Assembly (NCBI GenBank): GCA_902540235.1
Contig: CACBLI010000002.1
Coordinates: 62,001-126,000 of the forward strand
Direction: 5' to 3'
Origin: an uncultured Pelagibacteraceae bacterium
GTDB taxonomy: Bacteria; Pseudomonadota; Alphaproteobacteria; Pelagibacterales; Pelagibacteraceae
Length of the DNA stretch: 64,000 bases
The notes under the pieces were generated by a model. That model searched no databases. It was not told the origin of the DNA and was given only the letters and a program-made list of their open reading frames with translations. The first letter of the stretch is position 1. The number at the start of each line of letters is the position of its first letter. This document shows positions 2,834-5,072 of this stretch, in pieces. The translations under genes were made by a program, and so were the position numbers.

Positions 2834-3934
2834 ATGAAAATAGAATTAAAAAATAATAAGATATTTTTTGAAAACGAGGGTCAGAAGAAAGAGATTCATC
2901 CATTTTGGTTTAGAGAAAGAGTAAACGGTGAAAGTTTCATAGATGAGGCTACACAGCAAAGGTTATTTGACCCGACAAAATTAGAGGAAGATATTAAGAT
3001 AAACTCTCTTAATCTGTCAGATCAATTTATAGAAATTACTTTTAATGATGGCGCTTACACAAAATTTGCAGTTCAAAATATCTTAAGAGAATTTAGTAAT
3101 GAAGATGAGATTAAAAAAATTAAAAAAGTTGAATGGGATTCGTCTTTTACAAATTTTAAGAATTTTAAATTCGAAGACAATTTTTTTAATGAAAAAGTTA
3201 TGTATGACGCCTTAATAGATTTTTATAAATTTGGGTTTGTAATTTTTAAAGATGTACCAACTAAAAATAATTTTATTACAAATTTTGCAAATTCTATTGG
3301 AAGTATAAGAAGAACAAATTTTGGGGAATTTTTTAATGTTAAATCAAAACCAAATCCAAGCGATTTAGCTTATACTTCATTAGCTTTAGCACCACACACA
3401 GACAACCCTTATAGAAATCCTGTACCATGTATACAAATGCTCCATTGTATTGAAAACGAGGTTAATGGAGGCCTTTCCACTTTAGTAGATGGATATACTG
3501 TGACAGAAAAACTCAAAAAAGATTTCCAGGATTATTACAATATTCTTACTGATGTTAAAGTTAGATTTCAGTTTATAGATCAATCAGTTATTTTAGAAGA
3601 CTGGGCCGAGATGATACAATTAAACGAAAAAGGAGAGTTCAAGCAAGTTAGATTTAGTCCAAGATTAGACTTTGTGCCTTTAATGGAAAAGAATGAACTT
3701 GAACTTTTTTATTCTGCGAGAAAAAAAATATCAGAGCTCTATAATTCAAGTCAATATAGAATTGAATTTAAATTAAATCCTGGAGATTTACTTATGATGG
3801 ATAATCATCGGTTACTTCATGGAAGAACTTCATACGATGCAAATCAAGGTAACAGGTTTCTGCAAGGATGTTATATTGATTACGATAGTACAGAGGGAAA
3901 ACTAAAACACCTAAAAAGAAAATTTAATCTGTAA
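2834..3934 (+). CDS. Gamma-butyrobetaine hydroxylase-like 2-oxoglutarate/Fe(II) dioxygenase
   Basis: A 366-residue two-domain protein. Residues 1-95 match the small N-terminal domain (DUF971/GBBH-like N) of gamma-butyrobetaine and trimethyllysine hydroxylases. Residues 115-350 form a TauD-type jelly roll with the iron ligands His188-x-Asp190 (APHTDNPYR) and the distal His329 (RLLHGR), plus Arg341 placed to bind 2-oxoglutarate. Such enzymes hydroxylate trimethylammonium substrates using O2 and 2-oxoglutarate. In a marine heterotroph it could act on carnitine precursors or related betaines, but the substrate is an inference. Its last 11 bases overlap the convergent 2OG oxygenase gene. Confidence 0.85.
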   Translation: MKIELKNNKIFFENEGQKKEIHPFWFRERVNGESFIDEATQQRLFDPTKLEEDIKINSLNLSDQFIEITFNDGAYTKFAVQNILREFSNEDEIKKIKKVEWDSSFTNFKNFKFEDNFFNEKVMYDALIDFYKFGFVIFKDVPTKNNFITNFANSIGSIRRTNFGEFFNVKSKPNPSDLAYTSLALAPHTDNPYRNPVPCIQMLHCIENEVNGGLSTLVDGYTVTEKLKKDFQDYYNILTDVKVRFQFIDQSVILEDWAEMIQLNEKGEFKQVRFSPRLDFVPLMEKNELELFYSARKKISELYNSSQYRIEFKLNPGDLLMMDNHRLLHGRTSYDANQGNRFLQGCYIDYDSTEGKLKHLKRKFNL

Positions 3935-4520
3935 AGTGAAGCCAACCAGTAATAATATATTTTTCTCCCCCATTAAGAACACTCCCTCGATGTGCATGTG
4001 TCCATTCAGCTGGCCAAATTAATGTTTTTCCAGTTTCTGGCTTTACTTTAACATTATAATAATCAAAATCTGTTGTACCTCCATCATCAACATCATTTAG
4101 ATAGGTCATCCAAGCAAATATTCGATGAATGTGTGCCATATCGGTTCTTTCAGCGTGAAGGCGCCCAAAATGACCACCTGGAAGATATTTTTGAATATTG
4201 AAAGGACCAATGTGAATTTTCTTTACAAAGGTTTTCAAAAAATCGTATTGTTCCTTATAATCAGTAAAACATTGATATAGATTTTCAAAATACTTATTGA
4301 ACACTTTGTACTTTTCATCTTTAAGATTTTCTGGTTTAATAGTTATGTCGGTTGACTTTTTTATACTCTCATCGACACCGCCACCTGTAGTACCTTTAAT
4401 GTGGAGATCAGAATTATTTTCAAAAAAATCAATAATTTCTTTGCACAATTCTTTATTTTCTAAATTCCAATTCCCAATAAAGTTTGGACTGAGGTTATTC
4501 TTAATTTCTAATCTTTTCAT
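3924..4520 (-). CDS. 2OG-Fe(II) oxygenase family protein with an HxE motif
   Basis: A 198-residue protein with the prolyl-4-hydroxylase-like 2OG-Fe(II) oxygenase core: HAERTD at residues 122-127, then AWMTYLNDVDDGGTTDFDYY at 136-155, and the distal His177 in AHRGSV, followed by a GEKYIITGW strand. The usual HxD metal motif reads His122-Ala-Glu124 here. This form resembles a group of marine bacterial and phage oxygenases of unknown substrate. It is the last gene of the minus-strand run beginning with the aldehyde dehydrogenase at 8670 and follows a TPR protein gene by 3 bases, which suggests that the TPR protein could be a partner or target. Confidence 0.82.
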   Translation of the reverse strand: MKRLEIKNNLSPNFIGNWNLENKELCKEIIDFFENNSDLHIKGTTGGGVDESIKKSTDITIKPENLKDEKYKVFNKYFENLYQCFTDYKEQYDFLKTFVKKIHIGPFNIQKYLPGGHFGRLHAERTDMAHIHRIFAWMTYLNDVDDGGTTDFDYYNVKVKPETGKTLIWPAEWTHAHRGSVLNGGEKYIITGWLHFTD

Positions 4521-4523
4521 TTA

Positions 4524-5072
4524 TTAATCTATTTTAAAATCTTTTTCACCAAACTCTATCATACCTGTACTTTCATTCAAATATTTTTGTCCCTCACTAT
4601 GTCTGTTTAATCTTAAAAGATTTTTTCCATAAAAAGTTTTCAAATTTTTATTTTGTGGAAATTTTTTAATTGCTCTTGCACAAAAAGTATCTACAGCCTT
4701 TGTTAGATTAAGCTCAAATAAACATTGAGCAAATACCTCAATAACCGTTTCTTGATCCTCCTTCATAAGCAATGATTTTTCCAGTATTGGCAAAGCTTTT
4801 TTAAATTGTCCAGTACTGTAGTAAAGTTTTCCCAAATTATTGACAGATAATATTGAAACAGGTTCGATTTCTAAACACTTGATATAGCACTTCTCAGCCT
4901 CTTCTATTTTTTTTAGCTCAGTGTAGCATATAGCTAAGTTGTGAAGTGCAGGTGGAAGTTTTGGAAATTGCTCTAAAATTTCATTGAATATATCTATAGC
5001 TTTTTCAAATTCTCTATCAGCACGATATTTTTCAGCTTCTAAAAATTTTTTTTCAGTTTCTCTATCAATCAT
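4524..5072 (-). CDS. Tetratricopeptide repeat protein
   Basis: A 182-residue all-helical protein with tandem TPR units. About four or five repeats can be seen, starting near residues 9, 43, 77, 111 and 143, with the typical small and aromatic residues (for example PALHNLAICYTELKKIEEAE and SVNNLGKLYYSTGQFKKALP). There is no signal peptide, so it is probably cytoplasmic. TPR proteins mediate protein-protein contacts. The neighbouring 2OG oxygenase gene is 3 bases downstream, and TPR segments are often linked to prolyl hydroxylase-type enzymes, so a shared complex is plausible but not proven. Confidence 0.85.
   Translation of the reverse strand: MIDRETEKKFLEAEKYRADREFEKAIDIFNEILEQFPKLPPALHNLAICYTELKKIEEAEKCYIKCLEIEPVSILSVNNLGKLYYSTGQFKKALPILEKSLLMKEDQETVIEVFAQCLFELNLTKAVDTFCARAIKKFPQNKNLKTFYGKNLLRLNRHSEGQKYLNESTGMIEFGEKDFKID

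Follow-up and report, generated by a model that had tools for sequence, protein, structure and literature searches.

In AspH, a unit of tetratricopeptide repeats (TPR) stands N-terminal to a 2-oxoglutarate (2OG)-Fe(II) oxygenase, and excerpts of PMC6817910 describe that its iron is bound by two histidines only and that 2OG turnover persists when the TPR domain is removed, while the protein substrate (EGF domains) is no longer hydroxylated. According to a section of PMC12433258, the peptide-binding domain of collagen prolyl 4-hydroxylase (C-P4H) is a TPR domain as well. A glutamate in the metal motif (HxE in place of HxD) is mentioned in passages on clavaminate synthase (PMC6097109) and on JmjC oxygenases (PMC4233403), which belong to other branches of the superfamily. 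Related enzymes are also encoded by phages, and excerpts from this literature report several 2OG-Fe(II) oxygenases per cyanophage genome with speculative roles (PMC3037559) and pelagiphage enzymes that often lie close to ferrochelatases and were deemed unfit for phylogeny (PMC9599517). Here we analyzed two adjacent genes, encoding a 2OG-Fe(II) oxygenase with an HxE motif and a TPR protein, in a stretch of 64,000 nucleotides from an uncultured Pelagibacteraceae bacterium (contig CACBLI010000002.1, positions 62,001 to 126,000; the whole stretch is called the window in the following). In the open-licence part of PMC we found no paper on such a TPR-HxE oxygenase pair.

On balance we favor the explanation that both genes encode a two-subunit Fe(II)/2OG hydroxylase, with a dedicated TPR subunit that binds to the enzyme and offers it a polypeptide substrate. 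The catalytic subunit would be a small double-stranded β-helix of the P4H type with iron bound via His122, Glu124 and His177 and 2OG bound via Lys187. The TPR protein would dock onto it through a C-terminal cap containing GxGxIxF, and its repeat groove would hold the polypeptide with one residue within reach of the iron. It is the precedent of AspH and C-P4H that leads us to regard the TPR protein as the substrate-presenting subunit. The pair has the same order as AspH and two natural fusions have the same architecture, and a TPR peptide-binding part next to P4H-type catalysis would also be shared with the C-P4H α subunit (PSB-TPR plus catalytic domain) and P3H1/CRTAP. Unlike AspH, however, the two parts are separate genes in nearly all loci, E124 is invariant instead of the carboxylate being absent, and a Pfam scan of the oxygenase at E ≤ 1 gave no match to PF05118, which we take to be the AspH oxygenase family. 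The HxD...H motif of canonical prolyl 4-hydroxylases (P4Hs) is replaced by HxE...H, both in the window oxygenase and in all 147 homologues, whereas the 2OG lysine about ten residues past the distal histidine is present as K187 in all of them; in P4Hs the lysine at this position binds 2OG. The TauD/CAS-type domain PF02668 did not match the window oxygenase at E ≤ 1 either. Because features defining the P4H and AspH families were looked for and are missing, we place the oxygenase in PF13640 and the phrog_61 subfamily and not in either of those families. By analogy it most likely works like AspH and C-P4H, and in difference to C-P4H we do not claim proline as its target.

To take a broader look at the pair we used the best 80 of 208 bacterial relatives and all 67 viral relatives found in IMG/VR, fetched with six peptide patterns, none of which includes H122, E124, H177 or K187 and one of which includes H175. 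The initial annotation had noted two genes 3 bases apart and proposed that they belong together. Both open reading frames and their spacing were confirmed in the window, and the pairing proved to be conserved, with a TPR gene adjacent to the oxygenase gene in 75 of the 79 testable bacterial loci (L013 was omitted as its contig starts inside the gene). In 72 of these it lies upstream and in two it is fused, which is the arrangement of AspH and C-P4H with TPR N-terminal to the oxygenase, and in L049 it follows directly downstream. BLAST alone detected a TPR gene directly upstream (≤40 bases) in 65 of the 80 loci and a profile added seven more, namely L053, L062, L066, L069, L072, L081 and the truncated gene of L004, 82 bases away. 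The fused genes L063 (481 aa) and L067 (384 aa) come from unrelated genomes and were confirmed by Pfam. Locus L039 is from the named strain HTCC9565. Where the genes are separate the spacing ranges from −8 to +29 (71 loci), most often −4 (29 loci), which is the size of an ATGA-type overlap. In L056 the TPR gene is reduced to a C-terminal remnant; this contig, binned as Chlamydiae, carries a SAR11-like oxygenase and the remnant at its end with unrelated genes beside them and is probably chimeric or misbinned.

The same association was seen starting from the TPR protein. Of the 197 family genomes searched, 13 contain an oxygenase match, and each of the top ten TPR matches (E ≤ 2.9e-13) abuts one; weaker TPR matches (3.2e-13 on), not individually checked, lie nearly all in long frames of 433–723 aa, with the exception of a 119-aa frame (G122:C32). 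In an independent sample of the class, a close HxE match (E ≤ 4e-61) is present in five further genomes, each time with the TPR gene alongside. The phylum-wide search at E ≤ 1e-20 found the oxygenase in two of 398 genomes, the window's own and one with a relative of 33% identity. Distances between TPR proteins and between oxygenases are correlated (44 dereplicated pairs, Mantel r 0.77, reached in 0 of 2000 permutations), as would be expected for a pair inherited together. From these sequence comparisons the TPR protein appears to be a near-obligate dedicated partner, and support for the pairing is good. A search for a conserved third gene that might encode the target found none that is constant beside the pair across 35 different neighbor combinations in the 65 loci with both neighbors known. 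The target is therefore probably not encoded next door, and the substrate gene would lie elsewhere in the genome.

The oxygenase residues of interest in the window are H122-A123-E124, D127, H175, H177 and K187. The HxE...H residues had been recognized in the initial annotation, which considered HxE to be rare in the superfamily. The residues are as described but the rarity does not hold: none of the 80 bacterial and 67 viral homologues departs from the window oxygenase at H122, E124, R133, H177, K187, T191 or W193, and HxE is the rule in this large bacterial and phage subfamily. Members from phage isolates (HTVC008M, S-B64 with two copies and S-WAM1) also have HxE. HxD relatives were found in a search of 386 alphaproteobacterial genomes, 28 of which contain a relative of the oxygenase at E ≤ 1e-10 (29 matches). 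The 27 aligned relatives, leaving aside the window itself and the truncated match L177, comprise 11 with HxE...H, 14 with HxD...H and two with damaged triads. The latter, L175:1483-2103 (-) and L176:1486-2091 (-), belong to one alphaproteobacterial family, have HxD...N and FxD...Y, respectively, and are possibly pseudoenzymes that have retained their TPR partner.

The aspartate of the HxD relatives shares its alignment column with Glu124, and no more than one gap separates the motif from the Gly-rich stretch ahead of it. A profile alignment with vCPH (5c5t) also lays HxE over HxD. Because Glu124 is invariant, shares this column and is found in phage isolates as well, we regard it as the homologue of the usual Asp, fixed in the subfamily, and it is predicted to be the third iron ligand. 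Asp127, brought up in the initial annotation as the competing ligand, was ruled out because its position is variable (Table 1), so that the original preference for Glu124 stands as judged by alignments and predicted strands. In the tree without columns 122–124 the distribution of Glu and Asp requires two changes. The TPR-paired bacterial branch (58 rows) is set apart from a phage-like branch (46 rows) with Shimodaira–Hasegawa-like approximate likelihood ratio test (SH-aLRT) values of 87 and 100, in a tree calculated by a quick method and with several long branches flagged.

For structure prediction 88 homologues were aligned with the window oxygenase, excluding rows that were at least 90% alike, short or fused. 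The AlphaFold2 model based on these 89 rows (predicted local distance difference test, pLDDT, 95.0; predicted template modeling score, pTM, 0.92) predicts a prolyl-hydroxylase-type double-stranded β-helix. H122 is the last residue of strand 117–122, H177 the first of strand 177–179 and K187 the first of strand 187–195, placements that are usual in this fold. The best structural matches are P4H- or PHD-like (Z up to 20.1): an algal P4H with (Ser-Pro)5 and a Pseudomonas P4H with EF-Tu (3gze and 4iw3, Z 20.1 each), PHD enzymes including PHD2 with HIF peptides (Z 18–20), the viral vCPH (5c5t, Z 19.4) and P3H1/CRTAP/PPIB (8k0m, Z 17.2), with an identity of 11–22% to the matched structures listed. 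These nearest folds being peptide and protein hydroxylases supports the proposed polypeptide substrate. The Pseudomonas enzyme PPHD, which acts on EF-Tu, and vCPH from PBCV-1 differ from the window pair in that their PDB entry titles name no TPR partner, and both are HxD enzymes, as is C-P4H.

The window TPR protein scores above the cut-offs of several TPR families in Pfam, and besides ordinary TPR positions its conservation is highest in a C-terminal cap (approximately GxxLLxLNxHxEGLxxxxxGxGxIxF). Among 73 rows including the window, with the truncated proteins L004, L034 and L064 omitted, Leu152 is conserved in 95%, Gly161 in 93% and Gly170, as the only residue of the whole protein, in 73 of 73. 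In both fusions a short linker connects the cap to the oxygenase behind it, and we infer that the cap is a docking element on the oxygenase. The model of the fusion L067 (57 rows, pLDDT 94.1, pTM 0.87) predicts a defined arrangement of TPR part and oxygenase, as such a pTM would be hard to reach without a fixed arrangement of both halves. Cap residues 173–175 in the numbering of L067 form a β strand, the only one in the TPR half, and its partner should therefore lie in the oxygenase. Fold searches with the fusion model gave single TPR domains or single oxygenases, with no two-domain AspH or C-P4H match among the matches listed.

Several points weigh against a hydroxylase with a substrate-presenting TPR subunit. 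Function does not follow from a shared fold, and some enzymes with the P4H fold have small molecules as substrates. The pairing of the cap strand with the oxygenase is deduced from the fusion model, whose alignment held nine neighboring-gene pairs joined through stop read-through. With regard to Glu124, HxE comes to lie on HxD in only one of the five profile alignments listed, that with 5c5t, and not in the remaining four. Furthermore, the gammaproteobacterial loci L071, L075 and L077 have a different gene downstream and no TPR neighbor, so that the enzyme is apparently functional without it, and a TPR partner was detected by profile in none of the 67 viral loci, 58 of which have more than 400 bases upstream. 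It is quite possible, if clearly less probable than the explanation we favor, that the oxygenase has a small molecule such as an amino acid, a sugar, a lipid or a secondary metabolite as its substrate and that the TPR protein serves as a structural or regulatory subunit or recruits the enzyme to another protein. Phage homologues without TPR retain the same triad, and common tailoring enzymes are found nearby, as sulfotransferase genes lie near the pair in 20 of the 80 loci and a tryptophan halogenase (PF04820 in Pfam) lies downstream in L077, with the same cluster in L071 and L075. Since such neighbors would also fit a small-molecule pathway we keep this alternative in consideration. Against it stand the lack of a constant third gene, unlike in a biosynthetic cluster, the nearest folds, and a TPR partner that is near-obligate and sometimes fused. 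The sulfotransferase association itself is weak because 18 of the 20 loci form one SAR11 synteny block. In these 18 loci a TPR-sulfotransferase (PF13469) is near the pair, directly downstream in L015 (L015:4632-6272, 546 aa, PF13469 scanned in this locus), often with a second sulfotransferase-type gene next to it, and Sulfotransfer_1-type genes are nearby in 15 loci. In L055 (alphaproteobacterium MED-G100) an OGT-like TPR-GT41 glycosyltransferase (L055:4654-7146) follows 59 bases downstream of the oxygenase. Pfam analysis of 20 neighboring genes gave an assorted and mostly unrelated set, apart from a sulfotransferase (L019) and this TPR-GT41. The neighbors give a weak hint at chemistry following hydroxylation, and we consider it rather improbable that the Glu-ligand two-subunit hydroxylase modifies a cytosolic protein whose hydroxyls are then capped by the TPR-sulfotransferases or the OGT-type TPR-glycosyltransferase, while phages carry just the catalytic half. 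This would be a counterpart in marine bacteria to the hydroxylation-then-glycosylation pathway known for Skp1.

The TPR protein could also be the substrate itself, its hydroxylation tuning the binding of the repeats to something else, much as FIH hydroxylates ankyrin repeats. One-to-one gene pairing and co-evolution would agree with this, as would Asn79 of the TPR protein, which is 95% conserved. Asn79 occupies an ordinary position of the TPR consensus, however, the sole residue identical in all rows is a glycine of the cap and not a usual hydroxylation target, and the cis fusions L063 and L067 are more in keeping with a subunit than with a substrate that is turned over, so that we regard this alternative as unlikely. 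The initial annotation had left open whether the TPR protein of a protein-hydroxylating module presents the target or is the target; the presenting role is best supported, because of the AspH and C-P4H analogy together with the predicted inter-domain docking, and the second role is less likely. A last alternative is that Glu124 is no ligand and that the site is of the two-His AspH type or metal-poor, uses Asp127 or another residue, or belongs to a non-catalytic scaffold. A phmmer alignment sets His-Tyr-Asp of the Bacillus anthracis P4H opposite H117-F-G119, and the TPR-paired relatives L175 and L176 have visibly degraded triads. An H117-x-G119 motif was ruled out, as His is found at position 117 in 80 of 80 bacterial and in none of the 67 viral homologues and the alignments with 5c5t and with the HxD relatives both place H122/E124 on HxD. 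With D127 variable and H122, E124 and H177 invariant, we judge this alternative to be very improbable.

The 2OG-Fe(II) oxygenases of phrog_61 from cyanophages and pelagiphages belong to the same subfamily as the window oxygenase and have the same triad and lysine (67 of 67 viral contigs), but they form a separate branch of the tree and never occur with the TPR gene. In total 461 phage records match the oxygenase. Pelagibacter phage HTVC008M (L225, KC465899.1) carries four successive 2OG-Fe(II) oxygenase/phytanoyl-CoA dioxygenase genes by a neck gene and a ferrochelatase, and in S-B64 and S-WAM1 the relatives lie a few genes from the gp5 baseplate hub gene. The window oxygenase also matches the profile of phrog_2297 (E 1.4e-21), yet this family is titled 'DNA endonuclease', and in the RefSeq records NC_031944, NC_031900 and NC_026926 'DNA endonuclease' features coincide with oxygenase matches. 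This name is likely a misannotation that has spread through the family name.

The features of the locus are compiled in Table 1. The oxygenase matches PF13640 with 40.9 bits (gathering cut-off 27, E 4.2e-10) and the phage family profile phrog_61 over residues 13–196 (E 2.7e-44). The genome (1.16 Mb, 22 contigs) is SAR11-like, the closest homologues of the oxygenase being from uncultured Pelagibacteraceae (95–96% identity), and it contains no second homologue at E ≤ 0.01. In comparisons with near relatives, nonsynonymous (dN) and synonymous (dS) divergence was 0.015–0.072 vs 0.14–0.90 for the oxygenase gene (six comparisons) and 0.024–0.052 vs 0.23–0.43 for the TPR gene (four comparisons), and both genes look to be under purifying selection. 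A scan for promoters and terminators gave a count no higher than in shuffles. A second, unrelated 2OG oxygenase gene of the TauD family (PF02668, E 2.3e-42) is located at 2834-3934 (+), convergent with the HxE oxygenase gene, the 3' end of which it overlaps by 11 bases; its nearest NCBIfam model is TmpA with 343 bits, under the cut-off of 400. In L071, L075 and L077 the halogenase is followed by a gene that by eye resembles a TonB-dependent receptor.

Table 1: Features of the TPR-oxygenase locus in the window (feature, position, strand, evidence).
2OG-Fe(II) oxygenase gene, 198 aa, PF13640, predicted P4H-type double-stranded β-helix	3924..4520	-	open reading frame, PF13640, phrog_61, AlphaFold2, PDB fold matches
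TPR-repeat gene, 182 aa, apparent dedicated partner	4524..5072	-	open reading frame, TPR families above cut-off, adjacency in 75/79 testable loci
3-base spacer TAA, from TPR stop (TAA) to oxygenase ATG	4521..4523	-	sequence
His122-Ala123-Glu124 codons, predicted metal motif HxE	4149..4157	-	H122 and E124 in 147/147; aligned with HxD of HxD relatives
His177 codon, predicted distal metal ligand	3990..3992	-	147/147; start of predicted strand 177–179
Lys187 codon, predicted 2OG-anchoring lysine, distal His +10 residues as in P4Hs	3960..3962	-	147/147
Asp127 codon, rival acidic residue, not conserved	4140..4142	-	Asp in 6/80 bacterial, 0/67 viral homologues
TPR C-terminal cap, residues 149–174, approximately GxxLLxLNxHxEGLxxxxxGxGxIxF	4551..4628	-	conservation; precedes oxygenase in natural fusions

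In summary the pair of this abundant ocean bacterium looks like a bacterial version of the two-component animal enzymes that hydroxylate collagen and proteins like it. If this is true, the combination of TPR unit and oxygenase known from AspH and collagen P4H would also exist in free-living bacteria, with Glu replacing Asp at the iron. Many genes of marine phages and bacteria carry only a generic annotation such as '2OG-Fe(II) oxygenase' that names no substrate, and the near-obligate dedicated partner of the bacterial branch, together with the two fusions and the likely docking element, provides a starting point for isolating the substrate of this large orphan enzyme family.

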